In this document: one piece after another, positions 1 to 20,453 of the stretch | Layout of the letters: each line of letters starts with the position of its first letter | Numbering within the stretch: the first letter of the stretch is position 1 | NCBI GenBank assembly: GCA_022448645.1 | Contig: JAKVBZ010000022.1 | Coordinates: 1-24,238 of the forward strand | DNA length: 24,238 nucleotides | From: Pirellulaceae bacterium | GTDB lineage: Bacteria; Planctomycetota; Planctomycetia; Pirellulales; Pirellulaceae | Direction of reading: 5' to 3' | Notes under the pieces: model-generated | What the model was told of the DNA's origin: nothing | Databases searched by the model: none | The model's input: only the letters and a program-made list of their open reading frames with translations | Program-made: the position numbers and the translations under genes

Positions 1-2540
1 CACGAGCAGAAATGTTACTGGAAATGAAGCAATTTGCTGAGGCTGGCCAGTCATTTGGGCTTTTGGCTACGAAGCCCGGCTTTGAGTCGGCTCACTTAGC
101 TCTCTATCGTCAGGCTTACTGTTCTTGGCAATTGAATGATTTCGCCGCAGCTGCGGAACAATATGCCGCGGTGGCTCGGACACCTAACTCGCCCCACGCG
201 CAACAAGCTGGACTGATGTCTGGCCGCAGCCTGTTTCACAACGAAGATACGGCCGCCGCTAAAACTTGGTTGCAAAGTGTTGTCGTCGCTGCAGGGGACG
301 TTGGATTGGAAGCTGCACATTGGTTGGCACGCGTGCACTTGCACGAAAATCAACCGACTCAAGCTTTACAAGTTGTGGACACAGTATTGTCTGGTGCTGC
401 CCCTAGTCCATTTTCGGTGAATTTATTAATGGATCGCGCTGATGCATTGCAGCAAATTCCGGACCGGCTCAGCGAAGTTCCTCAAGCTTACCTGGTTGTC
501 GCACGGAATTACAAAGACCACGAACTCGCACCGCATGGGCTGTACCATGCCATCTTCGCCTCACTCGACCTCAAACATTATGCCCAAGGTATTGAGTTGG
601 TTAAGGAGTTCATGTCCTCCTATTCCACCCATGAATTAGCACGGGACGTGCGTCATGCCGAAGCAGAATGTCGCTTGATGAATGGGGACACGCTAGCCGC
701 TGAGCAAATCTACCGCGAACTGACTGCCGCAACGACAAACCATAAGCACTTCAGCCACTGGTTAGTCCGACTGGCATATACACAATTCTTACAAGCGAAA
801 TATGACGAAGCCGTGGCTACGCTGCAGGCGAACCTGGCACACATCCAAGCCTCACATCAAGTCGCCGAAGCCATGATGATGATTGGAGCGAGCCACTTCC
901 ACCAACAGAATTTCGACCACGCCCTGGCCGCCTTATTGACAGCTATCGAACATGCCGAACATCACGAAAAAACTGACGAAGCCTTACTGTATCTTGCTCG
1001 AACGCAACGAGAATTGGACCAACTCGACGAGTCTTTGAAGAGCCTGCAGCGTTTGGTACAGGATCATTCTCAAAGCGTTCATATGGAATCGGCATTCTAC
1101 TGGCAAGGCGAGAATCACTTCGCCTTAAAGGATTATGAAGCTGCAGCTGCTACGTATGGTGAGCTCTACCAACGCTGGCCCAAATCGACTTACATCCCGC
1201 ATGCCCTTTCCGGACAGGGCTGGTGCAGCTTTCGCTTGCAACGGTATGCACAGGGCATCAAAGCCTTTTCCGAGTTGATCGAGAAGTATGCCTCGCACTC
1301 CGTGACCGTCGAAGCGAGTTATGGACGAGCTTTGTGCCATTACAAGCAACAGGAACATGAGCAGGCGGTTAACGATCTGGAAATCTACCTGAAGTCCGAA
1401 CCTCCCATGGAGCGTCGTGCCAATGCTTTGTACTTGCAAGGTCTGTCATTGATCGAAATGAAGCAGTACCAAGAAGCTATTCAAAGCTTGACAACTTTAC
1501 TGGAACAGGTACCCGACTACAGCTCCGTCGACCGTACCATTTACCAGCTGGCCTGGACGTACAAGATGCTCGATCTTCGGCCAGAATCGATCCAATGGTA
1601 CACCAGACTAACAGAGCAGTACAAATCAAGTTCACATCTCGCTGAAGCCCATTACCATTTGGCCGAAAACGATTATTGGCACGAAGAAAATTATGCGGCA
1701 GCCCAGACCCATTATCAGCGTTGCCTGGAGCTCACTTCGGATGCAGAGTTAACAGAAAAGTCGCTCTACATGCACGCCTGGTGCCATTATCAACAACAGC
1801 AATTCACACATGCCTATCAACAATTCACCTTATTACTGAAGTCACACCCAAATGGCGCTCATGTTCCGGACGCACAATTCATGCAAGCCGAAGCGTTGTT
1901 TCGCCAAGAGAAGCACGGTGAGGCATTACCAGCTTACCAACAATTGCTCACCAACAATCTGCTTGGCCCCGATCGGGTCGTGATGGCCTTATTGCACGCC
2001 GGTCAGTCTGCCAGTCAAACCGAAGATTACCAGACAGCATTGCAGCTCCTGCAAAGAATTACTACCGAACATCCCTCGTCCAACCAAGTCCACGAAGCAA
2101 TGTTTGAACAAGGCGTTTGCCTGTTTCATTTAGGCCGTAACAACAAAGACGCCGAGTCTCCAGACTTTGCCCAGTTCGACGAGGCGATGAAACTGTTTGA
2201 ATCGGTGGCCACCAGTCATCGTAGCACACTTGCTAGTCGGGCTCGCTTTCACATGGGCGAAGTCTACTTTCAAAAGAAAATGTTCATCGATTCCATTCGC
2301 CAATACCAGCGAGTCATGTATGGATTTGGAGGCAACAACGCCCCTGACGAAGTAAAACCGTGGCAAGCCAGAGCTGGATTTCAGGCTGGACAAGCGGCTC
2401 TGGTTTTGGCTGGCGAAACCAAAGATTTGGACAGAAAGAAGCGTTTAATCATGGAGGGTGACAAGTACTTCCGCTATGTTGTTGAAAAGGCCCCAGACAG
2501 CGAAGTCGCATCGGCTGCCGAACAACGACTTCAACGCTGA
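1..2540 (+). CDS. Large TPR-repeat protein, 5' end outside window
   Basis: The reading frame is open to the left edge (R-A-E precede the first ATG at 12, completing a TPR helix), so that ATG is internal and the gene starts upstream of the window. At least 845 residues are visible, almost all tetratricopeptide-type helical hairpins of about 34-37 residues with the usual small/aromatic pattern (for example LKDYEAAAATYGELYQRWP and MKQYQEAIQSLTTLL). TPR arrays are protein-binding scaffolds. The stop at 2538-2540 is only 18 nt before the exbB-like gene, so the two are probably co-transcribed. By analogy with TPR proteins such as YbgF/CpoB beside Tol genes, I infer a periplasmic or membrane-associated scaffold for the following ExbB/ExbD complex. 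No signal peptide can be checked because the N-terminus is missing. The TPR fold is certain; the role is inferred. Confidence 0.9.
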   Translation, partial: RAEMLLEMKQFAEAGQSFGLLATKPGFESAHLALYRQAYCSWQLNDFAAAAEQYAAVARTPNSPHAQQAGLMSGRSLFHNEDTAAAKTWLQSVVVAAGDVGLEAAHWLARVHLHENQPTQALQVVDTVLSGAAPSPFSVNLLMDRADALQQIPDRLSEVPQAYLVVARNYKDHELAPHGLYHAIFASLDLKHYAQGIELVKEFMSSYSTHELARDVRHAEAECRLMNGDTLAAEQIYRELTAATTNHKHFSHWLVRLAYTQFLQAKYDEAVATLQANLAHIQASHQVAEAMMMIGASHFHQQNFDHALAALLTAIEHAEHHEKTDEALLYLARTQRELDQLDESLKSLQRLVQDHSQSVHMESAFYWQGENHFALKDYEAAAATYGELYQRWPKSTYIPHALSGQGWCSFRLQRYAQGIKAFSELIEKYASHSVTVEASYGRALCHYKQQEHEQAVNDLEIYLKSEPPMERRANALYLQGLSLIEMKQYQEAIQSLTTLLEQVPDYSSVDRTIYQLAWTYKMLDLRPESIQWYTRLTEQYKSSSHLAEAHYHLAENDYWHEENYAAAQTHYQRCLELTSDAELTEKSLYMHAWCHYQQQQFTHAYQQFTLLLKSHPNGAHVPDAQFMQAEALFRQEKHGEALPAYQQLLTNNLLGPDRVVMALLHAGQSASQTEDYQTALQLLQRITTEHPSSNQVHEAMFEQGVCLFHLGRNNKDAESPDFAQFDEAMKLFESVATSHRSTLASRARFHMGEVYFQKKMFIDSIRQYQRVMYGFGGNNAPDEVKPWQARAGFQAGQAALVLAGETKDLDRKKRLIMEGDKYFRYVVEKAPDSEVASAAEQRLQR

Positions 2541-2558: not shown

Positions 2559-3548
2559 ATGAAAACCAAATTGAATCTCACCACGGGTGTGCTGTGCATG
2601 GCCACCCTTTTCCATTCACGGTTGCGCCTGTTCATCATAGGCTCGGCATTCATTTGCTGGGGATGGTATGACCAGACAGTTCCCGTGGTATCCCTGTGGG
2701 CACAAGAAAAGGAATCGACCGGACCTGTCTCGACACCGCTCTCTCCCGAAGAACTTGAAGCCGTCAGCAACCCGTCCGACGGTGACAGCTCCTTTGCTCA
2801 AGATGACCACAGTCATGCCTCAGATCAGACAGATTCACTGAACCTTTTTCAGTTAATCCTGCGGGGGCGCTGGCTCATGATCCCTATCGGCATCATGTCG
2901 TTTGTGGTCGTTGCTGTTACCTATGACCGCTTCATAGCGTTAAGACAGTACCGGGTCTTTCCGACCGTGTTAGTCGATCAGTTGGGACAGTTGGGACAGG
3001 ACGCAGGAGGATTCGACCCGCGCAAAGCCTATCACATTTGCCAAAGGCATCCTTCAGCAGCAGCGACGATTGTGCGCACGATGCTACTAAAAGTAGGACG
3101 GCCACAATCAGAAATCGAGCATGCCGTTCGTGAAGCAAGTGACCGGGAAGCAGAACGGTTGTACGCCAACGTCCGCTGGCTCAACCTGGCTGCTGCGGTA
3201 ACGCCTCTGCTGGGACTGCTGGGAACCGTCTGGGGAATGATTCAAGCCTTTTTCGACACTACTCAACTGGCCCCCACTCAAAACAAAGCAGACTTTTTGG
3301 CCGAAGGCATCTATGTGGCTCTCGTGACTACTTTGGGAGGGCTCTCGGTCGCCATCCCAGCCGCCATCCTGGCACACTACTTTGAAGGCCGCATTCAGAC
3401 GGTCTTTCACCGAATCGATGAAATGCTATTCAACCTCCTGCCGCAAGTGGAACGCTACGAGGGACGAATGCGAGTTACTCACCAGCCCATGGAGGGCGAG
3501 CAACCGTCGCAACTAGTAACGCCCCACCAAGAGCCTAGCCACGAATGA
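2559..3548 (+). CDS. exbB: MotA/TolQ/ExbB family proton channel subunit
   Basis: This 329-residue protein has a signal-like hydrophobic N-terminus (about residues 22-48, possible cleavage after SLWA), an acidic spacer of about 55 residues, then the ExbB/TolQ core. TM1 is about 105-127, TM2 207-231 with TPLLGLLGTVWGMIQAF, and TM3 250-274 with YVALVTTLGGLSVAIPAA. The GTVWG segment and the Thr residues of TM3 match the polar pore-lining positions of the family. In the cell it would form the inner-membrane pentamer that uses the proton gradient to drive ExbD and a TonB-like partner. The N-terminal extension is longer than in E. coli ExbB but is common in extended ExbB forms. No good ribosome-binding site is seen before 2559; an in-frame ATG at 2598 is an alternative start but would cut into the signal-like segment. 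It lies 18 nt after the TPR gene and 52 nt before exbD. Confidence 0.93.
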   Translation: MKTKLNLTTGVLCMATLFHSRLRLFIIGSAFICWGWYDQTVPVVSLWAQEKESTGPVSTPLSPEELEAVSNPSDGDSSFAQDDHSHASDQTDSLNLFQLILRGRWLMIPIGIMSFVVVAVTYDRFIALRQYRVFPTVLVDQLGQLGQDAGGFDPRKAYHICQRHPSAAATIVRTMLLKVGRPQSEIEHAVREASDREAERLYANVRWLNLAAAVTPLLGLLGTVWGMIQAFFDTTQLAPTQNKADFLAEGIYVALVTTLGGLSVAIPAAILAHYFEGRIQTVFHRIDEMLFNLLPQVERYEGRMRVTHQPMEGEQPSQLVTPHQEPSHE

Positions 3549-3600: not shown

Positions 3601-4026
3601 ATGACCGTCAGAATTAGAAAAAGCAGTGTTGTCGAAGCGATGAGCCTCACACCACTGATCGATATTGTCTTTCTGCTGCTGATATTCTTCTTGGTGGCGA
3701 CACGATTTGCCGAAGAAGATCGAGAACTGGATGTCGTGCTACCAACGGCCAGCGAAGCCCAGCCGTTGGTGGTCCAACCTCAGCAGATCTTTGTAAATAT
3801 TGACCAAGACGGGACTTTTTACCTAGGCGGAGAACATTTGGACTCTCAGCAGCTGGAGATGGCATTGCGGCAAAACGCAGCGAACAATCCAGCGAACATG
3901 TCCGTAAAAATAAGAGCCGATCAACGGTCTGACTGCCAGTCGTTGATCACCGTCATGAACCTCTGCAACCAGGTTGGCATCTTAGACTATAGCGTCACAA
4001 CATCCGTTCAAGCGGGAGGTAGCTAG
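3601..4026 (+). CDS. exbD: ExbD/TolR family biopolymer transport protein
   Basis: At 141 residues this is the usual length for ExbD. A short basic cytoplasmic N-terminus (MTVRIRKSS) is followed by one membrane helix (about 18-38) opening with LTPLIDIVFLLLIFFLVATRF. D21 in PLID corresponds to the single essential membrane Asp of ExbD/TolR that carries protons. The rest is the periplasmic domain with the typical pattern of a short strand (IFVNIDQDGTFYLGG), a helix and a final strand (MSVKIRADQ). It would pair with the ExbB-like protein encoded 52 nt upstream. The start is the first ATG giving the expected short N-terminus; the Shine-Dalgarno region is poor. Family assignment is firm; whether it serves a TonB-like or a Tol-like partner rests on the neighbouring gene at 4493. 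Confidence 0.95.
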   Translation: MTVRIRKSSVVEAMSLTPLIDIVFLLLIFFLVATRFAEEDRELDVVLPTASEAQPLVVQPQQIFVNIDQDGTFYLGGEHLDSQQLEMALRQNAANNPANMSVKIRADQRSDCQSLITVMNLCNQVGILDYSVTTSVQAGGS

Positions 4027-4086: not shown

Positions 4087-4338
4087 ATGTCAAGAGATCA
4101 GTCTCCCAGACAGAATGCACGGCGGGAACACAATTGGCGTCAGTTGAACCCCGACGATCTCGACAACATCGAAGATTTTGAACCCATACGTCGGACTGGT
4201 GACAATGCAATGCCGGCTTCCTCCAAGCGCGCCTCCAAGAATGCTGCGCGCAAAACTAATGGATCACGTCGGGTGAGCAAAAAAATCTCCCAGCAAGTGG
4301 GTGGAATGAACCGTCGTCGCTCTAAACGTTTCGATTAG
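4087..4338 (+). CDS. Small basic protein of unknown function
   Basis: I do not recognise this 83-residue protein. It has no membrane segment and no signal peptide. The first 20 residues are Arg/Gln-rich, an acidic stretch follows at about 21-33 (NPDDLDNIEDFEP), and from residue 46 on it is very rich in Lys, Arg, Ser and Asn, ending NRRRSKRFD; it is probably disordered. It looks real because AGGAG at 4075-4079 lies 7 nt before the ATG, the best ribosome-binding site of this operon, and because it fits the same-strand gap between exbD and the large membrane protein gene. A cytoplasmic partner of the ExbB/ExbD complex, or a nucleic-acid-binding protein encoded by chance next to it, are both possible. 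Confidence 0.7.
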   Translation: MSRDQSPRQNARREHNWRQLNPDDLDNIEDFEPIRRTGDNAMPASSKRASKNAARKTNGSRRVSKKISQQVGGMNRRRSKRFD

Positions 4339-4492: not shown

Positions 4493-7400
4493 ATGGCCGA
4501 AGAACGACGCGTTGTACGAAAACTGAAGCACTCACGCAAGCTTTCGTTTGACGAAAAGCTGTGGCCCATCAATTTGGCAATCATGGTCCTGGCTGCATTC
4601 TTAGTGGGGATCATGGTCGTTCGATTTTCGGTACAGACCGGCCGTGTTTCTTTGATCGGGACGTGCCTCATCGCCGCGCTGATATTGCTGTCCGTCTCAA
4701 CCATGACCGGACTCCGGTTCGTCCATCAACGGACACTGCAACGTGGCACACAACTGGCTGCCGTGCTGAGCCTCTTAACGCACCTTGTGCTACTCTTCTC
4801 CATGGCGATTTGGCCCATTCATTCCCGGGTTGCAGAAATTCCAGAAGCCCCCCCCGACCCTATGCCACCAGAATTCACGGCACCCGAACTCGTGACGCCT
4901 CACTTAAATCAAGGTGAACAACGCAAACCAGATTTCCTTCGTCCCGTGGAAACACAGACGGTGGAAACTGGCGCTACCAATTGGACACGGTCTTCGGACA
5001 CAGGACTGGAGCAAGCTCCACTCATTCCGCGATCGTATCTATCTGATGAGAAAGTTCGACCGCAACCGAGCATCACTCCACGACAACGACCCGCCGAAAC
5101 AGCACCTCGAGAAGCTCCCACAGAATCGCGACTCAGCCATCGTGAATCTGCTAGGCCTCAGCCACAAGTTGCTGCACATCCCGTGGACCTACCGTCGCTG
5201 CCCGAGACTGTCGAGGCGGCCCCCACCAGCCAACTGATTGCCGAAACTTCTCCATCGTCGAGAACGACATCGGAACCTCCAGACCTACCGACCTCCACAG
5301 CCAATGCTTTCCCTACCTCCAATCCACCAGAAGCAGTCGTGATACAAGAACCTACCCAAGCTTCGCCCACGCAACCACAAGCAGAAGAGCCTTCGCGACG
5401 CACCGTTCGACCGACGACACAGCCAACCCTCACCGAAACCATTTTAGCTGTCGCGAAACTTACACCACAGCCAGCCGAAACACACGAAGACAAGCCACCC
5501 GTCCTCACAGAAATCCGCCGTCAAAGCTCCGACCTAACAGCAACCGCCGCAGAACGATCGCGGGTGGATCCGAGCCAACCGGCTACTGCCCGTCAAACCG
5601 ACATAGCACAACCAACCCGTCGGAAATCTGAATCGACAGCAGAACCAACCATTCAGCGACATGAGCCATTTCGGCCTCAAACAACCCCACATACCCAACC
5701 CAGCCAATCACAGTTAGCAGTTCAATCGTTGGGTCCTGTTGCCCAACCGACTGCCGATGATTTGCAAAACGAGGTCCACCCCGCTCCTACAGCACTCAAC
5801 CGCTCTATCGATGGGGTCACCGGAATTGGTCATTCAGAGAACCTGGGACACTCGTCACCCGCTCGAGGAGGTCCATCCATGGTGGCCGCCGTCTCGGTCA
5901 CACGAATCACGGCAACTCAAAACAACTCGCCAGGTCCGGCCATGCAACCCAGCGAACGGGTTCAAATCCCGCAATTGCGTTCAGACAATCTACGTCCCAC
6001 TTCAGTATTTCGAGCACAACCTGTTGAAATCGCTGTCACATACGGTTCACAAAACGTTGCTACGATGGACGCTTCATCAGCCGCAACCATCCATCGACAG
6101 GCTGCCGACGCGATTCTTGATCAAGTCACGGCCACGGTTGGATCTGCAGCCGTCGATTTGGGGATCCAAAGAATCGTCGCCGAAGACGGCTCAGGACGTG
6201 CTTCGGGGGGAGGACGCCCTAAGATCAATCCTGCACAGTCCAATTCGGCCTGGAAACTTACAGCTCCCAACGTGCGTCAACAGATCACAGCGGTTAACTC
6301 CACCCCCGACGTGCCCAATAGCGTCCGTGCCGAACAAGTTGGAGAGACGAGCCCTTCTAGTAACGCTGTACCAACTGGTCAATCTGTGGCAAGGACCACA
6401 ACCGCAGTATTGCTGCGCGAAGCAGAAACGGTAGCGATCGCTGAGGAAGCTGATCCTCCACCACGACTTCTCAACATGGAAACGGCAGCAAGACCACTTC
6501 GTCGCACATCCGAGTCAGCATGGCAAACGAGCGAACAAGTCAACCAACAAGACTCGTCCGTGGCTTCACCCACAGAGCACAAGCAGCCTTTTCGTCCACG
6601 GTCTGAGACTGCATTCAATGACTTTGCCTTCGCGAAATCGAAAGTCGAGGTTCAGGTTAGCCATGTTGAACAAACCACGGACAGCCCGTCTCCTGAAAGA
6701 GCACAAGCTGACGTTAACTCCTCATCCAACTTACGCAGGAACTCTGTCGCCGAAACCGTTTTACTTCCTGAAGTCGAAACCGAAGGGCCAGGTGGACTGT
6801 TCTTAGACCTTCAAGCCAGCGTCGGGATCACCACGCAACGGACACCCACAGCAAGCGAATTAGTCGCTTTTCATGAACGACGTTTTGTCATGCGCGATTA
6901 CGGCGGAAATATTTCTCTAGGAGGAGTGGATCAAGTATCGGCCCCTGCGTTCAGCAAACGCATGTCGCGTGTTCAGGGTGATCAGCTCGGTAGTAATCCA
7001 GGACAGGACGATGCCCGGATCGATGAAACCATTGAACTAGGATTGGCCTTCTTGGCCCGTCACCAGTCTCCGCACGGCAACTGGAGCCTACAGCATTTCG
7101 CTGCCGGAAAACCGTACCAGGACCAGCAAAGCCAAGTCGCCCTCAACGCCGACACCGGAGCCACTGGCTTGGCCCTCTTGGCCTTTTTGGGAGCCGGATA
7201 TCATCATCAAAGCAATCCATATGGGGGAGTCGTGCAAACCGGCCTGAAGTCGCTCATCCAATCCCAAAGTGAAAATGGCAATTTATTTCTTAGCGAAGAC
7301 GAGACTTCTAATCAATCGGTAGCTCTGTACAGCCACGGTATTGCCACGATTGCCCTTTGCGAAGCGTACGGCATGACCCTCGATCCGGAATTACGAGAAC

Positions 7401-8071
7401 CTACGGAACGTGCCTTGAACTACATCGTGGCAACCCAACATCCTCGACGCGGAGGTTGGCGTTACCAGCCTCAGGTCGGCTCAGATACATCGGTTACGGG
7501 ATGGATGCTGATGGCACTGAAGAGCGCTCAGATGGCCCACTTGGAGGTCCCCGAGCATACCTGGGCAGGTTTGGAACGCTTCATGTCATCGGCCGAAGTC
7601 GCAAACCACCCTCATTTATTCCGATACAATCCTTACGCACCAGATACCGAAAGACAACGCCATGGTCGTTTGCCCAGTGACACCATGACGGCCGTGGGTT
7701 TACTGATTCGACTCTATACCGGTTCAAATCGTACCGATGAGCTGATGATCATGGGGGCCGAATACCTCGCCGCTCACCTGCCCGCTCCTGAGAAACGTGA
7801 TACCTATTACTGGTATTACGCCACGCAAATCATGTTTCACATGGGAGACCAATACTGGAATGCGTGGCGAGAGAGCCTGTTCCCATTACTTACCGATAGT
7901 CAAGTTACCAACGGTCCGCTAGCCGGAAGTTGGGACCCCCTACGTCCAGTACGAGACAAGTGGGGACACCACGCGGGACGTGTCTACGTCACCACGTTGA
8001 ATCTGCTTTCGCTAGAAGTGGCCTACCGCCACTTACCAATTTACGAAGATTTCAGCCTTCGTAACCGTTAG
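4493..8071 (+). CDS. TonB-like membrane protein with C-terminal squalene-cyclase-like toroid
   Basis: The 1192-residue protein has three parts. Residues 1-110 hold a basic cytoplasmic start and three membrane helices (about 24-45, 52-73, 88-109), placing the remainder in the periplasm. The third helix contains LSLLTHLVLL with S93 and H97, the S-x3-H spacing of the TonB membrane helix, and is followed at once by a Pro-rich EIPEAPPDPMPPEF segment as in TonB. Residues about 115-840 form a low-complexity linker rich in Pro, Thr, Gln and Ser. Residues about 843-1192 match prenyltransferase/squalene-oxidase repeats: QSPHGNW near 858, QSENGNL near 925, RRGGWRYQP near 985 and DTSVTGWMLMALKSA near 998. 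The DxDD catalytic motif of squalene-hopene cyclases is not seen, so a cyclase activity is not supported. GGAAGG at 4475-4480 is a distant possible ribosome-binding site. Location in an ExbB/ExbD operon supports a force-transducing role; this is inference. The stop overlaps the converging gene by 4 nt. Confidence 0.85.
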   Translation: MAEERRVVRKLKHSRKLSFDEKLWPINLAIMVLAAFLVGIMVVRFSVQTGRVSLIGTCLIAALILLSVSTMTGLRFVHQRTLQRGTQLAAVLSLLTHLVLLFSMAIWPIHSRVAEIPEAPPDPMPPEFTAPELVTPHLNQGEQRKPDFLRPVETQTVETGATNWTRSSDTGLEQAPLIPRSYLSDEKVRPQPSITPRQRPAETAPREAPTESRLSHRESARPQPQVAAHPVDLPSLPETVEAAPTSQLIAETSPSSRTTSEPPDLPTSTANAFPTSNPPEAVVIQEPTQASPTQPQAEEPSRRTVRPTTQPTLTETILAVAKLTPQPAETHEDKPPVLTEIRRQSSDLTATAAERSRVDPSQPATARQTDIAQPTRRKSESTAEPTIQRHEPFRPQTTPHTQPSQSQLAVQSLGPVAQPTADDLQNEVHPAPTALNRSIDGVTGIGHSENLGHSSPARGGPSMVAAVSVTRITATQNNSPGPAMQPSERVQIPQLRSDNLRPTSVFRAQPVEIAVTYGSQNVATMDASSAATIHRQAADAILDQVTATVGSAAVDLGIQRIVAEDGSGRASGGGRPKINPAQSNSAWKLTAPNVRQQITAVNSTPDVPNSVRAEQVGETSPSSNAVPTGQSVARTTTAVLLREAETVAIAEEADPPPRLLNMETAARPLRRTSESAWQTSEQVNQQDSSVASPTEHKQPFRPRSETAFNDFAFAKSKVEVQVSHVEQTTDSPSPERAQADVNSSSNLRRNSVAETVLLPEVETEGPGGLFLDLQASVGITTQRTPTASELVAFHERRFVMRDYGGNISLGGVDQVSAPAFSKRMSRVQGDQLGSNPGQDDARIDETIELGLAFLARHQSPHGNWSLQHFAAGKPYQDQQSQVALNADTGATGLALLAFLGAGYHHQSNPYGGVVQTGLKSLIQSQSENGNLFLSEDETSNQSVALYSHGIATIALCEAYGMTLDPELREPTERALNYIVATQHPRRGGWRYQPQVGSDTSVTGWMLMALKSAQMAHLEVPEHTWAGLERFMSSAEVANHPHLFRYNPYAPDTERQRHGRLPSDTMTAVGLLIRLYTGSNRTDELMIMGAEYLAAHLPAPEKRDTYYWYYATQIMFHMGDQYWNAWRESLFPLLTDSQVTNGPLAGSWDPLRPVRDKWGHHAGRVYVTTLNLLSLEVAYRHLPIYEDFSLRNR

Positions 8072-11010: not shown

Positions 11011-11949
11011 CTAACAACCTACACTCACCAGCTTGCGACGTAGGAAACACGGTGCGGCCAAGAACACCATTCCGATCAACCCGAACGCACTCGGCTCCGG
11101 CACCTGGTGCCCACTGTAACCCGCCGCAGAAAAGTTACTAGACAAAAAATTAAAATCGGTGATGTCAACGTCGCTGTCGCCATCAAAGTTTCCAACGTTC
11201 CAAGTATTGGCTATTCCGTTGGAACCAATCGGGTCAAAATTCGCCGACAGCAGGTTAAAGTCGGTAATATCAACCCCCCTTCCTGCGGGGAAAACATTGC
11301 CAATGCCGTCCACGTCGCCTCGTCGATAAGCCGAGTTGTAGCCATTTTCGCTACCAGATTCTTGCAACCAACGATCAATATCAATGTTATCGACGACGAG
11401 ATCATCGTTCAAATCAAAAACGTCACCATGAGAAGTCGGCACACCCGCCACTAGATCACCCGTGGCATACATCAAGTTCAGATCCGCGACGTCACATCGC
11501 CGGTCGTTGTTGAAGTCGCACAACGAGCTGACGATCACAACGTTCGCGGTAAACCTATCCCATCCATCTGCTGAATAGGAAATCCCCGGATCAACTCCTA
11601 GGTTGAAGTTGTAGAGACTTGACAAATCGAACACACCGTCAACCACAGTGTGCGAGAGAAAAGAGACTTCGACGTATTCCTCTGCAGTGCTACTCGACAT
11701 GAGGGCGAGCACAATCCCCAACGGTCCGCTGCCACTCAAAAGGTGCTGCATGGGTGACGTGAGAGTCCCTTGCAGAACTCCCAAACACGTCGGATCATTG
11801 CCGCAAGGAGCTTGATTGGCGTACAGCGTCAGTGTCTCATCCACTGCATTGAGTTCCAGGATCGCGTCACCAGGTCCGGGAGAAATCTGTGCGCACAGCG
11901 ACCCTTGCAGAAGTAACAGCGTGTAGCAAACAATCACCCATCGCATCAT
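11011..11949 (-). CDS. PEP-CTERM protein with dockerin-like repeats
   Basis: The 312-residue product has a signal peptide (about 1-20, LLLLQGSLCA). A body domain of about 120 residues that I do not recognise follows, with a likely disulfide between two Cys of CGNDPTCLG. Next come dockerin-like calcium loops: CDFNNDRRCDVADLNLM, FDLNDDLVVDNIDI, a degenerate loop, and NFDGDSDVDITDFNFL. The C-terminal sorting signal starts VPEPSAFGL at 283, with a hydrophobic helix and basic FLRRK end. Proteins of this class are processed by an exosortase and displayed on or outside the cell. The gene starts 2 nt after the stop of the 2833-residue protein gene, with AAAGG just before its double ATG, so it is probably translationally coupled to it. 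Its last calcium loop is closely related to one in that protein. Cargo or ligand unknown. Confidence 0.88.
   Translation of the reverse strand: MMRWVIVCYTLLLLQGSLCAQISPGPGDAILELNAVDETLTLYANQAPCGNDPTCLGVLQGTLTSPMQHLLSGSGPLGIVLALMSSSTAEEYVEVSFLSHTVVDGVFDLSSLYNFNLGVDPGISYSADGWDRFTANVVIVSSLCDFNNDRRCDVADLNLMYATGDLVAGVPTSHGDVFDLNDDLVVDNIDIDRWLQESGSENGYNSAYRRGDVDGIGNVFPAGRGVDITDFNLLSANFDPIGSNGIANTWNVGNFDGDSDVDITDFNFLSSNFSAAGYSGHQVPEPSAFGLIGMVFLAAPCFLRRKLVSVGC
11153..11193 (-). repeat. Dockerin-module DNA repeat, copy in the PEP-CTERM gene
   Basis: This 41-nt segment and the segment at 12304-12344 agree at 34 of 41 positions by my count. They encode GNFDGDSDVDITDF and GNFDGDTDIDITDF at equivalent places near the C-termini of the two neighbouring genes. 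This points to duplication or gene conversion of a calcium-binding module. Confidence 0.6.
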
Positions 11950-11951
11950 TG

Positions 11952-14900
11952 TTACCTTTGGTTACCAGGCTCATCTGGCGAGTCCAACTCGACTCGGCTT
12001 TTGCGACGACTAGCTCTAACTGTCATCCAAGATTCGTTCGCAGCAGTCGCTTGGTTTTCTGGCCTTACGGCAAAATCACCAGCTGTCTGTGCCACATCGT
12101 TCCTTTCCGTTTCGGAAATCATCCACTGTCGTCGATTACTCATGGAGTCCGTTTCGGCGTCCTGAGCGAAAGCTACGGGCAACATCCGGGGAGATCCCAT
12201 ATCGGATATTAACCCAGCCCCTGACCGGGGCTCGTTCTCAGTGACCGCTGACATGACTCCCAACACATATCCCAGGGGAGAAAAATTTCGGACGACATGC
12301 GAGAAATCGGTAATGTCGATATCGGTGTCGCCGTCGAAGTTTCCATTCTGCCAACGCAATTGCTCGCCGCCACCTAACGGATTGAACTGAACGACCAGTT
12401 TGTTGAAATCCAAAATATCTACGTCGCCGTCCAGATCTACATCGCCGAATTCTTTTTTCATGACATTCTGCACCAGTTCGACCACGTCATCCCGATCCGC
12501 GTCCATATCTCCATCCAGATCAAACAATGGATCCGTGGAACCCAAATTGGCGTAAACCAAATCAATATCTGTAGCATCCAATGCTAGGTTCTGACTGATG
12601 TCGCCTGACATCACGGGGATCGTCGATCCTGGTGTCGGCGCCGCACCGTACCAACTATTGTAATTGCCACCCCAAAATTGGGTGCTGACGCGGTGTAACG
12701 AAGAACCTCCGCCGGCCGGTAACGTAGGCCATGGGGATTCGTCGTCAAAGAAAACCTGGTCCTCGGTCACAAGTTCGCCGGTCAACAACGAACCTGCTCG
12801 ACGCAACTCCAGTGGCTCGCCATGGTCGTCCATCAACCCGGAATATCCGCCTACAAAATGTGCGGAGGAAGAACTCACATCCACGCCAACGACGGATTCA
12901 AAATCGGCCAGTGAGTCCAAGTCCGAGTAAGGATCAAATGGCAACACAACGAGCACCTGTCCCGGTCCCAGCATGGTTCCAGCAGGAATGACAGCGTCCA
13001 GGCCTTCAATCTCCCAACCAGAAAGATCGATCGTCCCCAGATCTGGATTGAAGATTTCAACGAACTCCATCAGATCTTCATCGATTCCATTTCCAGGATC
13101 TGCTGGATGGTAGTGAACTTCGGTCACGACCAAAGGTCCCACACGTGGTCCACTGTTAAGTGCAAATGGTGTCTGACTGGCTAGGGGTGACGGTTCTCCC
13201 GTACCGTTCGGCCATCGTCCGACGGACTCACCCTGTGGCGACGCCGTGAACGAGAAATGGTCAACAAAGCGTAACGGCTGGCCACTACCATCTGCTTCGA
13301 TCAACCACAGGTCGACAGGCATCCCATTCGAGAAAGAGAAGCCTAGAAAACTTTCGTCGAGGACCATGTATTGATTTGCGGAGATAAGGCTGGGCCCAAT
13401 TTGAAACTTGAAATAATTGGCCTGATCGTCGCTCAGGTACCATTGCGTCGTCATGACAGAACTGCCGGTAGGATTGTACAGTTCGACGAAGTCAATATTT
13501 CCTGACTCACTATCGGTAAGGACCTCATTGATAACGACGCTCGCCATGGATCCCACACCGGTCACTCCTGGCGAACCGTGAAACTCCACACTAGCACGCC
13601 AGTTGGACGGGTCGTCCACGTTTCCATTCACATCGATGATCTCGAGAGAACTACCGTGGCCATCAGCGCGTATCGGCCAGGCAGCTTGATCATCATAGGA
13701 AAACTGCTGAACGGTTCTTCCCAACGAGTCAACCAGGCGTACCGTTTCGCCCCCATTCGAAAAACTGAATCGTTGAGTCCCCGTTCCATACTCTCCTGCA
13801 ACGTTCAAACCGGTACCGTACAATGACTCAAACGCCATCTGATCCTGGACCACGAGGATCACTTCACCTGGTGCCAGCATCGAACTCGGGAATTCAAATT
13901 CAACTCCCTCTGCCATACGGACACCGCTCAAATCCAAAGCTACCGCCCCCACGTTCTGCAATTCGAAGAATTCCAAAGAACCAACGTTGAACGGGTGGTA
14001 CATCAATTCGGTAATTCGCAACCCATTCAACAGATCGAGAGCTTCTTGAGTTGAAGTATCCGACACCACCGATTCTGCGGTCATGATCAGGCCAAACACC
14101 GCATCCGAAGTCATGGTGTCATTTTGGTGCAGTTCCACCGCAATGACATTGTCTCCGGTGTTCAAAAATGCCGAAGGCACGGTGACCGGTCCCTCGTAGT
14201 TGGCGATCGTGATGGTCCGGTTCGCACCCGTCAGATAGTTCACGGTTCCTCCTGGGAGTCCCAGGCGCGTGACTTCCATTCCATTGACGTAAATCACCGC
14301 TCCATCATCCACAAGTGGTAATATTTCGACATGGGTTGTCGCTGGATCGGTCGTCAAGTTGAAATGGCGACGATAATAGCTGGAAATGATCCCCAACGAG
14401 ATCGGTGTCTGGATCGGAGCTGGCAAGGTATCGGGATCCGTGCCAAGAACTCCCGGGCCAGTCGGCCAAGAAGCATCGTTAAACGTGGGTTGTCGCCAAG
14501 CGGTCCCCAAATCGGTACCGGAATCGTCGTAAGACCAGACGTCGTCAACCTGAATCAAGATTTGCACGGACGTTGTTGTTGGGTTTTCATTAGCGGCTCC
14601 TGGAGTCGGCAATTGCAAGTCAACAATCGTGGAACTTCCATTCGGACTGCGTCCCTGTGATCGATCCGCCACTTGACCTACAAAGATCACGCTATCAACT
14701 ACGTTCCCACCCGGATCCAACAAAGCGACCATTTCCTGGTTCGAGGACAATCGAAAACTCAAATGATCATGGCCAGCTGCTGCGTCGCCGTCAGCAATAA
14801 AATCTCGATAACCATTGGCTGCCAGAAAACTCAAAGGTGGAATCGGATGCATCGTCGGCCATCCAACCGGTTCGTCGGAAAAGAAAAGTCCTCCTAAAGG

Positions 14901-17900
14901 AATCGGTAACGACGTCGGGTTGTAGATTTCGAGAAAATCGTCTCTTAGTAATTCGTCACCTCGGGCTAACCATTCATTCAGCCGGACAGCACTCCAATCC
15001 GAAGTGGGTTGTACGACGTTTGCAGATCCGAATGTGGGAACAGTAAGTGTCCAGGGATTGTCACCGCTTTCTTGACGACCAATCGACAGATTCGGCACTT
15101 GCAATCCAAAATCGACCGAGTCCAACAGGTTTCCTCCGGAGCCCACACTGTCAAACAAGTAGACGCCGTCGCCTTGATCATTCAACGAGAATCCCAGATG
15201 AATTCCGGGAGTGCCATCGGGAGCATTCGCGTACAACGTCAAATAATCACCTGGCTGCACAATGGTACCCGGCGCAAACTGAAATCTATCCGGCACGGTG
15301 GGATTGTCCGAAATTCGCATCCCGCCTAAATCAATCGCATTGGCGCCCAAGTTTACTAACTCAATCAAATCCGGCTGTGTTCCTTGATGATCAACGACGC
15401 CATCATTGTCCGCCAGTACTTCGTTAATCAGCACCTGAGGGCTGAACGTCTCAACCGTCCACGTTTTGGAAACGGTCGGTGAAGCCTGCCAAACTCCGGC
15501 AAAATCTTGTCCCTCGGCTTCAACCGTATACATTCCATCAGTCAATCCGTTAAGCGTGACGTCGACGGAACGTACCGTGCTACCTGATGGATTAAACCCT
15601 GAGCCGATTGGAATCACGGAACTCCAACTGCCGCCATTCACGCGATAGCGGAAGGCGAAGATTCCGGGACCGCCAAACGTCAACGTTGCAGCGGTTTGTC
15701 CGGTCACCGTAGGAGGCTCGCCAGCAATCCACACACCGGCAGGAACGAACGCGCCAAAGTCTTGTCCAAACGGCCCTTGCCCTTTGGCCCCGGAATGGGT
15801 GTCGAGCTGTAAATCGCCCAACATCGCGTCGACAAAATGCACATCGCCTTGGACATTACCCGCTCCCAATTCCCAAATCATATGGGGTCGGTCCCCAAGG
15901 GACACGTCGGCGATATTCATGTCGACATAATTCGATTGTAGCTCTAGCGTGGAGGTAGTCCCGGCAGGCAAATCCACATTGCCAAAGACTCGTGGTACAT
16001 CGGAAAAAATATTTCCGGACGCATAAGCCCCTAAGCCGGGAACCGCACCCGGCTCTGGCACAAACAAATTGATGGCAGAACCGATATTCGGGTCTCCAAA
16101 CACATCCACAAAATCGTCGTGGACGCCATGGACCGTATTGTTTTCAAAGATCGTTGCTGCCGACTGTTTGAGGTTAATCGCATGATCGACCTCCCAAAAA
16201 ACATTCCGAGACACGACGACTGTCGTATTGGCCCCCGCATCACCAGTAGAAATCGCGTTCGCATACCCGGTGTCCGAAGTTTGGTCGTCCTTAAATACAC
16301 TTGCAAACAGGTTTCCAGCGACATAGACGTCGCCGCCCAGGTCTAACAGTTCATCACCGGCACCCGTGAACACGTTGTCGAGCACCTGCAGGATTGGATT
16401 AGGCAGACGGTTACTGTCTGAATCGATTATGTCGTTGTGTCCACGGTTGGTGCCGAAGAAATTGTTCTGAATAATGGCACGCCCGCCTGCTGGAATCGAA
16501 CCGACACCTTTGACTTGTTCGGCCGTATTGTCCAACCCTAAAGCCGCAGGAGACTCTCCATCGGCGAACATATCGGGAAACACAGAATTTTTTAACGTGT
16601 AACTCGCGTCCTCGGTATAAAACATGGGACGATGTGTCCCGCGCCAGGTAACGTTGTCGACAATGGCCTCGCTGCGTATCACCCCAATCGAGCCTTGGCT
16701 GCCCTGAGCATAGTCAAAATCCGCAAAGGAAATAATATTTTCTGCAGACATGCTATCGATGAACTGCACGCCATCCCAGCGCGGTGGCCCATCGGGCAAA
16801 CCAGGTTGGCCACCAGGTTGATTGGGCACCTCAGGAGCATTTGGTACGCTCGTAAACCGAATACGATCGAAAGCGGTACCCTGCGCATCCAGAATCCCCG
16901 ACACTTGCAGACGGGTGTCCTGATCAAAGTAAACCGAGGTTCCTGGCTGAATGACTAGCTTTTGTCCTACAGGAACGGTTGCGTTAGCCGTCACGTGATA
17001 GGGGCCATCGGCGGTGGTCCAGGTCACCGTTCCAGACGGGTCACTAATGGTTCCTGAGACCGTTTGTTCGGATCCGCTATCCCGCCAGATGTCGATGAAA
17101 CCACTGTCCACCACTTGGCCAGTACCACCAGGTCCGTCGAACGCCTGAACAACAATCCGATCTACACCTGGATTGACCGGGAACCCCGAGCCGCTAGAAG
17201 CTACCTCCGCGGTCAATTCCAAGTTCATACTAATATCGCTGCTGGCTAGCGCCGCTTGATGGACTTCGACCGCCACAACGTTGGTGCCGGCAACCAGCAG
17301 CGTTGGATCAATGTTGTAGCTGAAAAACGTTTGTTCCGTTGGCGGCCCAATCTGGTCGGGCGCAGCCAGCGTCAAATGGCCGGCTCCAACTGGCAAATTC
17401 ACACGCACAACTTCGCTGCCGTTCAAATAGACTGCTGCGCCATCGTCCCGTAGCAAGCGGAGCGTCCCGGAATCGTATTGGCTGGGGTTCGCGACGTTGA
17501 ACGTATGACGAAAATACGTCGTGATGTACTTATTCGTGGATGAGGGACCAAAACTGACGACGGTCGCTTCGTCATTGTCTCCATATCCCAGTTCGGCCGG
17601 TCCATTTCTCCAATTGGCATCGATGACGAAATCCGTTTCCTTCCACGCGGTTCCTTGATCTGTTCCATTGTCCAAATAGTCCCAATTTGCACCCTCGCTA
17701 ATCAAGGTATCAACCTGTCCGGCAATCATACTTCCTAAAGACCATTCGCCTGTGTTCGCATCGAAGTTGGCCAGCTGCCCATCTACCAAGACAGATTGCG
17801 TGGCAATAGGGTCGGACGTTCCATGAACTTCGCCGAATCCCAAGGTGGTTCGAGGAAACTCACCCACGACTGGCAAATGGCTGGCGATCGTAAACGAGGT

Positions 17901-20453
17901 TGTCTGCTGTTCGAGCTGCGACAACACGCTGTCGGTTCTAGCCACAATGTATTGCTTCCATATGTCACGCGTGGCGCTGGGAACGAAATCCAACAGCTGA
18001 TCGATCAACGGATTCAAGGTCTCTGGGTTGTACACTTCTTGAATCAGATCACGAAAAGCCTGCAAATAAAGAGAACGCGTATCGGGATGCGTAAACAGCC
18101 GAGTTAGCCCCCGTACGTTGATGTAATTGTTGAAGATATCCCGAGTCTCAGTACCCGGCGTAAAGAGCGTATCCATATCGTGTGGCACAAGAACGAACTT
18201 GGGGTCGATCACACCAGCATACATGGCAAAATCGTCACCACGTCCGGTAGGCAGCCCACCTTCCAAATTGCCCAACAGCGAGTCTAACGCCAGATATCGC
18301 ATCCATTGCTCAACGTCCAAGACTTGGCTCAGATCTGACAAGTACGTTGCATCCGGGGCGTTGTTCAACACATCCAGCATGTTGATCAAGTCGGTCCAGT
18401 CATCCACGGACTCATTCGTTTGCTTGTAATACGAGTCTCGATAGCTGTTGGGATCGGTACCTTCGTAAGTTAGTTCACCACCCGAAACCTGGTATCGGTC
18501 TTTGACACGGTAGACGTTACCATCCGGATCGTTAGGGAAGTGATGCATTGCAAAATCACTGTCTGCCACTTCCAATTCGATGTACGAACCATACATCGCG
18601 TCACCTGCCACGGCCAAATTTTGATCATTCACGCGCAACTGAATAGGCCGTCCATCCGGAGCTGGGTGCAACGCTAGACGATGAATGGCGTTTCCCACAA
18701 TCTGATCCGGGACACCACGCGCATTTATATTTAGACTCGAAATCCCATCCAGCAGCCGATCGCGCGACAAATTGATCCGATAATTGTTCCGATTATTTCC
18801 CGTTGCCACACGAGAAGAGTTTCCTCGATTGCGGATTCCAGCGCTGTAGCGGACCTCTACTTCGCTTCCATCCACGCGTACCACCGAAGCGTTCATTTGT
18901 GCATTGGTAAGGGATTGGGCTCCGGGACCGTCACCAATGTCCGCCAACTCTGCTCGTTCGCTTTCGGTCATGATCAAGCGTAGTTCCGGCTGTGCTCCTA
19001 CAGGCCAGGGCGCCGTCGAATCGTAGCTGTCGTCGACTTGGTACAAGAGATTCGCAAGTTGCTGCCCGGAAGGTTGCGTTGCCGCAGGCCAACTGCGCGA
19101 CAGTGTTCCTGAATCGCTGCCAGACACGTAGAACTCAATGATCGTCCCGTGCGGGTGAGCTGGAATAATCGCTCCGAATTCTCCATTGTTGGCGGCACCG
19201 TCACCCTGTTTGCCGGTGTCGTACATCCGGTACTGCTGAAACGTGCCGGCACCATCAACACGCCAATGTAATGTCGCCGTCTGGCCGACAGATAGCTCAT
19301 CCAACAACCGTACTGTCACACTGACCGGTTCCGAGGCACGAGGAATCACAGGCGAGTGTGTCACATCAAGGATCATCGGAGCAATGTCCGAAGAGGCTAC
19401 AGAATTCTCCACTCCTGGCGTACCTTCGAGAACGGCACTCGCCCGCCAATTCTGACCTTCTTCGTTTGTTAAGTCGGCATTCGCTAATTCGAGCGAGTGA
19501 CCACCACCGTCATGATCATCAAGCCACACCCAGCCGGTATGCCCTGCGTCCAACGGCCCTTCGGATCGCTGCGACCAATCGCCCTGATCAGCGTAAGTGA
19601 CTTCGTCTACCGTGCGGCCTAAATCATCCACGACCCGCACGCGCTCACCACCGTTGCTCAATCTCCCTGTCCAGCCTCCCACGACATTCGTTATGCCCGG
19701 ATACTTGGCCTGAAAAGCATCCACGTTTGCCGCCACAACCAAGTAGTCATTGTGCAGAATACTGACATCTGGAAACGTAAACTGAACGCCATCGTCGATT
19801 TGCCAACCACCCACATCCACGGGTATTCCTGACCGGTTGACGACTTCCAGATATTCTTCGAGATCGTTATTACTCGCAGGATGATACATCAACTCATTGA
19901 TGATCACCCGCTGACTCGGGTCTACCAACTGACTCCCGTTCGCAGCTCCGGGCGTCGGTGTATCGTAAAATCCTTCGGTTGTTTCATCCGCAGCTAGTCC
20001 GTAGGACATATTAGCCGACTGAGAAGGAAACTGCGGAGCGAATTCGTGAGCGACGGTCATTCCATCCGGATGCACGAGTGCCAGATATTCTCCACCTCCG
20101 TCGAGCCGGTAATTCGTATGCAATTCACTGAAAGGGATTGCACGATCTTTCCCTGATGCGAAAAAAACCAGATACTCGTCAGCCGTCAGCGTCACATCAG
20201 GGATCTGCCACTTCGTAAGATTGACTGCGCTGTCCGTCAGATACCAGCCATTAAGTTGAATGTCGGTAGCCGTCGCATTGTGGACTTCCAACCAATCCGA
20301 GAAATCACCGTCCTCGTCCATCAGCGTCGAATCGTTGATCGCCATCAACTCCGAAATGACAGGTCCATGCGTCAACATCCAACGTGATTCCAAACTTTGA
20401 AAGTTTGCGATCCGTTGCAGGTGTCGTCTTTGAGAACGCGACTTGGTTCGCAT
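11952..20453 (-). CDS. Giant exported mosaic: lamin-tail, CotH-like kinase, beta-helix, dockerin
   Basis: The 2833-residue product begins with a basic segment and FQSLESRWML (residues 18-27), the LEPR-XLL-type motif of planctomycete exported proteins; there is no classical hydrophobic signal peptide. Lamin-tail domains are at about 30-165 and 183-350 (INELMYHPASNNDLEEYLEV). A CotH-type kinase domain is at about 488-850, with GDDFAMY near 738 and VPHDMDTLF near 757 as likely catalytic or metal-binding segments. A beta-sandwich module with DDGAAVYLNG is at about 920-1080. A right-handed beta-helix is at about 1127-1560, and an Ig-like stretch follows. Lamin-tail domains start again near 1672, 1818, 2147, 2305 and 2438, with a second beta-sandwich copy at about 1970-2125. 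Dockerin-like calcium loops are at about 2617-2730 (FGDVDLDGDVDILDFNKL), and a polar tail without PEP-CTERM ends the protein. It probably acts at the cell surface in adhesion, assembly or protein phosphorylation. The start at 20453 fits the motif spacing; the ribosome-binding site is weak. Confidence 0.9.
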   Translation of the reverse strand: MRTKSRSQRRHLQRIANFQSLESRWMLTHGPVISELMAINDSTLMDEDGDFSDWLEVHNATATDIQLNGWYLTDSAVNLTKWQIPDVTLTADEYLVFFASGKDRAIPFSELHTNYRLDGGGEYLALVHPDGMTVAHEFAPQFPSQSANMSYGLAADETTEGFYDTPTPGAANGSQLVDPSQRVIINELMYHPASNNDLEEYLEVVNRSGIPVDVGGWQIDDGVQFTFPDVSILHNDYLVVAANVDAFQAKYPGITNVVGGWTGRLSNGGERVRVVDDLGRTVDEVTYADQGDWSQRSEGPLDAGHTGWVWLDDHDGGGHSLELANADLTNEEGQNWRASAVLEGTPGVENSVASSDIAPMILDVTHSPVIPRASEPVSVTVRLLDELSVGQTATLHWRVDGAGTFQQYRMYDTGKQGDGAANNGEFGAIIPAHPHGTIIEFYVSGSDSGTLSRSWPAATQPSGQQLANLLYQVDDSYDSTAPWPVGAQPELRLIMTESERAELADIGDGPGAQSLTNAQMNASVVRVDGSEVEVRYSAGIRNRGNSSRVATGNNRNNYRINLSRDRLLDGISSLNINARGVPDQIVGNAIHRLALHPAPDGRPIQLRVNDQNLAVAGDAMYGSYIELEVADSDFAMHHFPNDPDGNVYRVKDRYQVSGGELTYEGTDPNSYRDSYYKQTNESVDDWTDLINMLDVLNNAPDATYLSDLSQVLDVEQWMRYLALDSLLGNLEGGLPTGRGDDFAMYAGVIDPKFVLVPHDMDTLFTPGTETRDIFNNYINVRGLTRLFTHPDTRSLYLQAFRDLIQEVYNPETLNPLIDQLLDFVPSATRDIWKQYIVARTDSVLSQLEQQTTSFTIASHLPVVGEFPRTTLGFGEVHGTSDPIATQSVLVDGQLANFDANTGEWSLGSMIAGQVDTLISEGANWDYLDNGTDQGTAWKETDFVIDANWRNGPAELGYGDNDEATVVSFGPSSTNKYITTYFRHTFNVANPSQYDSGTLRLLRDDGAAVYLNGSEVVRVNLPVGAGHLTLAAPDQIGPPTEQTFFSYNIDPTLLVAGTNVVAVEVHQAALASSDISMNLELTAEVASSGSGFPVNPGVDRIVVQAFDGPGGTGQVVDSGFIDIWRDSGSEQTVSGTISDPSGTVTWTTADGPYHVTANATVPVGQKLVIQPGTSVYFDQDTRLQVSGILDAQGTAFDRIRFTSVPNAPEVPNQPGGQPGLPDGPPRWDGVQFIDSMSAENIISFADFDYAQGSQGSIGVIRSEAIVDNVTWRGTHRPMFYTEDASYTLKNSVFPDMFADGESPAALGLDNTAEQVKGVGSIPAGGRAIIQNNFFGTNRGHNDIIDSDSNRLPNPILQVLDNVFTGAGDELLDLGGDVYVAGNLFASVFKDDQTSDTGYANAISTGDAGANTTVVVSRNVFWEVDHAINLKQSAATIFENNTVHGVHDDFVDVFGDPNIGSAINLFVPEPGAVPGLGAYASGNIFSDVPRVFGNVDLPAGTTSTLELQSNYVDMNIADVSLGDRPHMIWELGAGNVQGDVHFVDAMLGDLQLDTHSGAKGQGPFGQDFGAFVPAGVWIAGEPPTVTGQTAATLTFGGPGIFAFRYRVNGGSWSSVIPIGSGFNPSGSTVRSVDVTLNGLTDGMYTVEAEGQDFAGVWQASPTVSKTWTVETFSPQVLINEVLADNDGVVDHQGTQPDLIELVNLGANAIDLGGMRISDNPTVPDRFQFAPGTIVQPGDYLTLYANAPDGTPGIHLGFSLNDQGDGVYLFDSVGSGGNLLDSVDFGLQVPNLSIGRQESGDNPWTLTVPTFGSANVVQPTSDWSAVRLNEWLARGDELLRDDFLEIYNPTSLPIPLGGLFFSDEPVGWPTMHPIPPLSFLAANGYRDFIADGDAAAGHDHLSFRLSSNQEMVALLDPGGNVVDSVIFVGQVADRSQGRSPNGSSTIVDLQLPTPGAANENPTTTSVQILIQVDDVWSYDDSGTDLGTAWRQPTFNDASWPTGPGVLGTDPDTLPAPIQTPISLGIISSYYRRHFNLTTDPATTHVEILPLVDDGAVIYVNGMEVTRLGLPGGTVNYLTGANRTITIANYEGPVTVPSAFLNTGDNVIAVELHQNDTMTSDAVFGLIMTAESVVSDTSTQEALDLLNGLRITELMYHPFNVGSLEFFELQNVGAVALDLSGVRMAEGVEFEFPSSMLAPGEVILVVQDQMAFESLYGTGLNVAGEYGTGTQRFSFSNGGETVRLVDSLGRTVQQFSYDDQAAWPIRADGHGSSLEIIDVNGNVDDPSNWRASVEFHGSPGVTGVGSMASVVINEVLTDSESGNIDFVELYNPTGSSVMTTQWYLSDDQANYFKFQIGPSLISANQYMVLDESFLGFSFSNGMPVDLWLIEADGSGQPLRFVDHFSFTASPQGESVGRWPNGTGEPSPLASQTPFALNSGPRVGPLVVTEVHYHPADPGNGIDEDLMEFVEIFNPDLGTIDLSGWEIEGLDAVIPAGTMLGPGQVLVVLPFDPYSDLDSLADFESVVGVDVSSSSAHFVGGYSGLMDDHGEPLELRRAGSLLTGELVTEDQVFFDDESPWPTLPAGGGSSLHRVSTQFWGGNYNSWYGAAPTPGSTIPVMSGDISQNLALDATDIDLVYANLGSTDPLFDLDGDMDADRDDVVELVQNVMKKEFGDVDLDGDVDILDFNKLVVQFNPLGGGEQLRWQNGNFDGDTDIDITDFSHVVRNFSPLGYVLGVMSAVTENEPRSGAGLISDMGSPRMLPVAFAQDAETDSMSNRRQWMISETERNDVAQTAGDFAVRPENQATAANESWMTVRASRRKSRVELDSPDEPGNQR
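12304..12344 (-). repeat. Dockerin-module DNA repeat, copy in the giant gene
   Basis: Partner of the segment at 11153-11193, encoding GNFDGDTDIDITDF. A further, weaker related calcium loop (GDVDLDGDVDILDF) is encoded just to its right at about 12405-12450, so the module is repeated within this gene too. Confidence 0.6.

Follow-up and report, generated by a model that had tools for sequence, protein, structure and literature searches.

The 1192-aa protein encoded at 4493..8071 on the plus strand of the window (the whole stretch of Pirellulaceae DNA analysed, 24,238 nucleotides) is probably a force transducer of the TonB/TolA kind with a new head, driven by the ExbB/ExbD-type motor encoded upstream of it. 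The assignment draws on the open reading frame, profile searches and a structure model; gene order, the predicted fold and the conservation of motif and motor residues were computed. The first-pass annotation had described a TonB-like transducer with a toroid as its head. That observation was confirmed, and the interpretation given to it is supported. The planctomycete toroid family points to an undescribed route for energy across the cell envelope.

Gene unit and synteny

All four genes of the unit lie on the plus strand. The first, at 3..2540 and cut at its 5' end by the window, encodes a TPR protein (TPR_6, 5e-49) that scores 213 bits against a cut-off of 90 with tol_pal_ybgF (TIGR02795), a family in which TPR models cross-match. 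It is followed by an ExbB/TolQ-type motor subunit at 2559..3548 (PF01618, 1.3e-25; TolQ chains of the PDB, 1e-10), an ExbD/TolR-type subunit with channel Asp21 at 3601..4026 (PF02472, 2.6e-29) and the toroid gene. An 83-aa basic ORF with no family match was seen between the ExbD and toroid genes (4087-4338, plus strand). The ExbD-toroid gap is 466 bp in the window, compared to at most 160 bp in 63 of 65 measured gaps, and the long gap and the small ORF therefore look lineage-specific.

To the unit described earlier, the TPR gene (3-2540) is an addition. Its family, of about 1100 aa, was present at 59 of 81 neighbourhood loci (the best 80 of 408, plus the window). It lay on the toroid's strand in 58 of the 59 ORFs measured, and its start preceded that of the toroid gene by a median of 4.8 kb. 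Many TPR homologues have starts that resemble signal peptides by eye, suggesting that the TPR protein is probably periplasmic; on this sequence evidence it is a probable partner of the toroid protein in that compartment.

The association with exbB and exbD also held among orthologues. Distinct orthologues with at least 2.5 kb of upstream DNA were pooled from L001-L080, the window and L151-L197, sets that share genomes, and duplicates were removed by identical last 250 residues. ExbD stood directly upstream on the same strand in 87 of these 93, and ExbB in 84. Both were missing in six (L057, L060, L043, L169, L190 and L191), and three more had no recognised ExbB. A count restricted to toroid ORFs of 600 aa or more that had 2.5 kb or more of upstream DNA (69 ORFs) located ExbD within 2 kb in 65 and ExbB within 3 kb in 64.

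Membrane anchor and linker

Structure modelling and hydropathy placed membrane helices 1 and 2 at residues 24-45 and 50-76 (4562..4720, plus strand), and the model and alignment placed helix 3 at residues 84-106 (4742..4810, plus strand). Arg and Lys residues precede helix 1 and lie between helices 2 and 3, which suggests that the N-terminus is inside and the toroid in the periplasm. As reported earlier, helix 3 of the window protein contains both S93 and H97 of the S-x3-H motif. The Pro-containing linker of about 700 residues that had been noted after it is also present: residues 107-815 (4811..6937, plus strand) are predicted to be disordered, with pLDDT mostly below 50, and 81 of these 709 residues (11%) are Pro. 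Linker length in the 88 exbBD-linked proteins ranged from 310 to 1842 residues, with a median of 656. The periplasm of the planctomycete phylum is enlarged, according to the available part of PMC11958385.

After the helix, residues 131-155 (4883..4957, plus strand) form a conserved segment in which P151 and V152 were kept in at least 90% of 33 sequences and P131 in at least 90% of 26. This segment may be a candidate ExbD-binding box; in TonB, the D-box is 45-ISVTMVT-51 (available part of PMC12215075). Residues ~440-573 (window 5810-6212), within the disordered region, hold conserved positions with no predicted fold. Here G441, P486, P502, G550, G557 and G573 were kept in at least 90% of 33 sequences, and these positions are possible binding motifs. 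A PDB sequence search with the full toroid protein as query gave no match.

The S-x3-H motif in orthologues

N-terminal regions were aligned for the 86 of 120 listed homologues that have at least two N-terminal helices. Residue 97 was His in 51, Asn in 34 and Ile in 1 of these 86 homologues, which keep the N-terminus, and residue 93 was Ser in 48, Cys in 22, Gly in 9 and Ala in 7 of them. The expected conservation of the pair was found in part: position 97 was His or Asn in 85 of 86 and position 93 Ser, Cys, Gly or Ala in all 86, while the exact Ser-His combination occurred in 14 of 86. S93 is not strictly conserved, which corrects the earlier description. Where one of the two residues was replaced, the other was nearly always retained (at least one of S93 and H97 in 85 of 86; Fisher 1.4e-11, relatedness ignored). 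Swayne and Postle reportedly found a His-to-Asn change in TonB to be fully functional.

A motif script was applied to the 88 distinct genomic exbBD-linked proteins and assigned S+H to 56, C+H to 17, G+H to 6, A+H to 1, S+N to 5 and G+N to 1. The two unassigned proteins were L050 and the second toroid of L077, a paralogue. By itself, the looser S93/H97 pattern seen in orthologues is weak evidence, since controls have it as well: 106 of 879 membrane segments, and 35 of the 277 proteins that contain one to three helices. The full SHLS pattern is absent from the window protein, which has M104 and P108 at the positions expected to be Leu (His+7) and Ser (His+11). No clear covariation was seen between His/Asn97 and ExbB helix 1, a comparison with only six Asn-type pairs. 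Two of the Asn97 orthologues, L043 and L060, stand without exbBD in a conserved, different neighbourhood and may borrow another motor.

The S-x3-H motif in paralogues

The strongest evidence for reading the family as probable transducers comes from paralogue sequences. Nine genomes provided 39 non-orthologous toroid ORFs (L112-L150); in 29 of them the toroid is preceded by 120 residues or more. An exact S-x3-H within a predicted membrane helix was found in 28 of these 29 long paralogues and in none of the 10 short toroids; the count of 28 of 29 leaves out three orthologues and the 10 short toroids. The one exception, L115, has an N-terminus that by eye resembles that of a lipoprotein. As controls, 879 membrane segments from other ORFs included 8 with the exact motif, and 277 proteins having one to three helices included none (Fisher 6e-45 and 8e-39, respectively; relatedness ignored). 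Control ORFs were picked mechanically, longest first, and may include false genes.

The same motif was found across the phylum. The 30 best loci of a phylum-wide search, one per genome (L081-L110), showed S-x3-H in 24 of 27 testable cases, with misses in L088, the second ORF of L109 and L110. This count includes one orthologue, L081, and excludes three short ORFs and the 5'-cut, motif-less L083, L084 and L101; because 5'-cut ORFs with the motif were kept in, the rule favours the transducer reading, and the result becomes 24 of 30 when these three are taken as misses.

In the 28 paralogues, Leu was present at +11 from Ser (His+7) in 18 and Ser or Thr at His+11 in 13, and a D-box-like alternating strand followed the helix in 20 of 28, compared to 17 of 127 windows from the same linkers. 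ExbB or ExbD was encoded close upstream of seven, all two-helix forms (L120, L123, L125, L130, L136, L142 and L148). The other 21 had neither within 4.5 kb upstream on their own strand and would have to borrow a motor. A PDB profile search with the paralogue helix found no TonB/TolA chain, and nothing up to E 10. When five single helices were searched against Pfam, one gave two weak matches below the cut-off, which were taken as chance. Genome G001 has four other ExbD loci (L198-L201); the ORFs listed there included no S-x3-H head. One contig, L077, carries two facing toroid units (L077:9989-14569 and L077:16863-20480), one with a three-helix orthologue and one with a shorter paralogue of 702 aa; both units have an ExbB and an ExbD of their own.

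Motor subunits

Residues of the motor were conserved. The channel Asp, D21 of ExbD, was present in 88 of 88 sequences, and S114 of ExbB was invariant in the 86 of 88 aligned ExbBs having a residue at that position. ExbB T223 and T258 were invariant in 25 sequences and P216 was kept in at least 90%. In E. coli TolQ, Ser28, Trp32 and Pro138 form a contact network with TolA Ser18/His22 (available part of PMC12215075). P216 aligns with TolQ Pro138. S114 fits TolQ Ser28 in a gapless Ser-x9-Arg register, an equivalence that was read by eye, as the HMMER profile alignment stopped short of ExbB helix 1. The equivalent of TolQ Trp32 is Val118 in the window ExbB, and Val is found there in 71 of 88.

Relation to known systems

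The first-pass annotation knew of no described counterpart. A parallel exists, however, in the vWA-headed transducers of Williams-Jones et al. 2025 (PMC12204202), which, in the available part of that paper, combine an SHLS membrane helix, a disordered linker with a motor box and a head unrelated to TonB/TolA. They occur in PVC and other bacteria; in the PVC group their genes often follow a TPR gene and genes of the tolQ/tolR type, and their function is described as unknown (available part of PMC12204202). The window has the same order of TPR, tolQ-like, tolR-like and transducer genes, with one ExbD where vWA units have a pair. The toroid proteins differ further in the head, an alpha/alpha toroid with no vWA match, in having three N-terminal helices (one or two in paralogues) and in linker length, with a median of 656 compared to about 100 residues. 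The toroid family can be seen as the same design as the vWA transducers, changed in its head, its three-helix anchors and its much longer linkers. Among the matches listed from open-licence PMC, in part only the best of many, there was no description of toroid-headed transducers. A term search of the main text of PMC10632474 gave no match, and one of PMC12505986 gave a single passage, with nothing on squalene or prenyltransferase.

Like TonB and TolA, the toroid protein has an S-x3-H helix, a flexible Pro-containing linker and ExbB/TolQ and ExbD/TolR genes alongside. Unlike them, it has three helices, a very long linker, a His that can be Asn and no TonB/TolA C-terminal domain.

Distribution and cellular role

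The long orthologue was concentrated in close relatives. Each of 13 relatives had one strong orthologue (E<=1e-180). Of 80 genomes from the family to which one of the 13 belongs, 70 gave a single match at E<=1e-150 and none gave two, with up to 22 candidates scored per genome. Across 246 genomes of the phylum, with up to seven candidates scored in each, 78 had a match at E<=1e-80 and only 4 at E<=1e-150. This spread of E-values and the organism names of the loci suggest that the long orthologue is typical of a Pirellulaceae-like group and that weaker toroid relatives occur phylum-wide.

With motor genes and a helix motif as in TonB, the toroid might pull an outer-membrane receptor for nutrient import, of polysaccharides for example. 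The same 13 relatives had 6 to 13 further toroid matches each, some of them split pieces, as would be expected of substrate-specific transducers. We consider this role rather unlikely. A TonB_C protein is already encoded in 11 of 16 relatives' genomes, the orthologue occurs in single copy, and, beyond TPR, ExbB and ExbD, the commonest same-strand neighbour family was present at only 18 of 81 loci, although a receptor may be among these less frequent families. TolB_N, in turn, was found in none of the 16 relatives' genomes, compared to 3 of 14 control genomes, pointing to a Tol-like vacancy.

The TonB_C and TolB_N counts, the single copy and the TPR score above the tol_pal_ybgF cut-off favour Tol-like housekeeping over nutrient import. 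As in Tol-Pal (TolQ-TolR-TolA-TolB-Pal-CpoB), a TPR protein, a QR-type motor and one transducer occur in single copy; unlike Tol-Pal, the relatives' genomes gave no TolB_N. The window gene is probably the single-copy housekeeping member of the family, with a Tol-like envelope job, and we propose the specific Tol-like role tentatively. Its product is a single-copy candidate for trans-envelope energy transfer in a group where TolB was not found (16 relatives' genomes).

Toroid head

Residues 839-1178 (7007..8026, plus strand) were modelled as an alpha/alpha toroid, and fold comparison matched it to squalene/hopene cyclases. The earlier description of a squalene-cyclase-type toroid without DxDD, standing in place of the TonB C-terminal domain, fits the prediction: DxDD is absent from the window toroid, and there was no Pfam TonB_C match. 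Elsewhere, the catalytic DxDD was present in one of the 61 toroids from orthologues and in none of the 39 from paralogues. The head shares its fold and Q-x3-G-x-W type repeats with squalene-hopene and oxidosqualene cyclases and with single-toroid class II cyclases (MstE). Unlike these enzymes, it is membrane-anchored through a transducer helix and scores far under the curated family cut-offs (TIGR01787, 26 of 322.7 bits; PF13243, 12.1 of 26.1 bits). A PF13243 survey of 119 genomes returned top matches that look like genuine cyclases by score and length, and was uninformative for the toroid family. At E<=1e-5, the toroid region was matched by 2703 of 7996 scored candidates, most of them unnamed proteins.

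Seven residues (D964, D998, Y1105, Y1108, Y1109, E1175 and R1179) were the same in all 61 toroids from orthologues and all 29 from long paralogues, which favours a shared ligand over a drifting protein interface. The ten short toroids, of about 350-410 aa (L131-L133, L137-L139, L144, L145, L149 and L150), have no transducer helix. By eye their N-termini are signal-peptide-like, some with a Tat-like RR. By sequence they appear to be unattached relatives of the head that retain some core residues and have mostly lost E1175/R1179.

Most of the folds that scored best belong to enzymes (cyclases, epimerases and GH76). Such folds, the strong conservation of aromatic and charged residues such as D998 and the three Tyr, and the existence of short toroids (10 of 39) would fit a periplasm-tethered enzyme, acting on glycans or isoprenoids, that the motor positions or releases rather than using it to pull on an outer-membrane partner. 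We regard this as improbable, given the missing DxDD, the failure to reach any curated enzyme family and the confinement of the S-x3-H helix to long forms. E1175 and R1179, kept in every one of the 29 long paralogues but scattered among the 10 short toroids, further suggest that the long heads are under their own constraint. Ordinary operon neighbours with a chance motif and no coupling, a reading to which the 8 control segments with S-x3-H and the 35 control proteins with the looser pattern lend something, are hardly credible, being already contradicted by the motif counts in long paralogues (28/29) and across the phylum (24/27) and by the synteny (87/93).

Proposed mechanism

For the toroid protein as a force transducer, we infer physical coupling, force, role and ligand as follows. 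The ExbB/ExbD-type motor encoded upstream would draw on proton motive force, and helix 3 would dock outside ExbB through its S93/H97 face, while the conserved post-helix stretch may bind the periplasmic domain of ExbD. The linker, long and flexible, would let the toroid reach across the periplasm, which is wide in planctomycetes. The toroid would bind a conserved ligand or partner there, possibly a lipid, a polymer or a component of the outer membrane; the TPR protein would help, and the motor would pull or release the ligand-engaged toroid. Paralogues, often with one or two membrane helices, would be alternative or orphan transducers sharing motors.

More speculatively, planctomycetes may possess a whole set of toroid effectors driven by proton motive force, in which the single-copy, Tol-like TPR-ExbB-ExbD-toroid unit takes the place of TolA/TolB in bacteria whose division and envelope are unusual. 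Several motor-sharing orphans would accompany it, each loading or unloading, by mechanical force, a ligand inside its cyclase-like ring. If the toroid protein is such a transducer, the ExbBD/TolQR motor would be a general power source with an exchangeable effector head. A large set of database toroid proteins would gain a testable mechanism.

Other genes in the window

On the minus strand, 11952-20453 encodes a protein of 2833 aa in which seven matches to the lamin-tail domain and one CotH kinase domain were found. The protein that follows it, at 11011-11949, has a weak PEP-CTERM match, below the cut-off.
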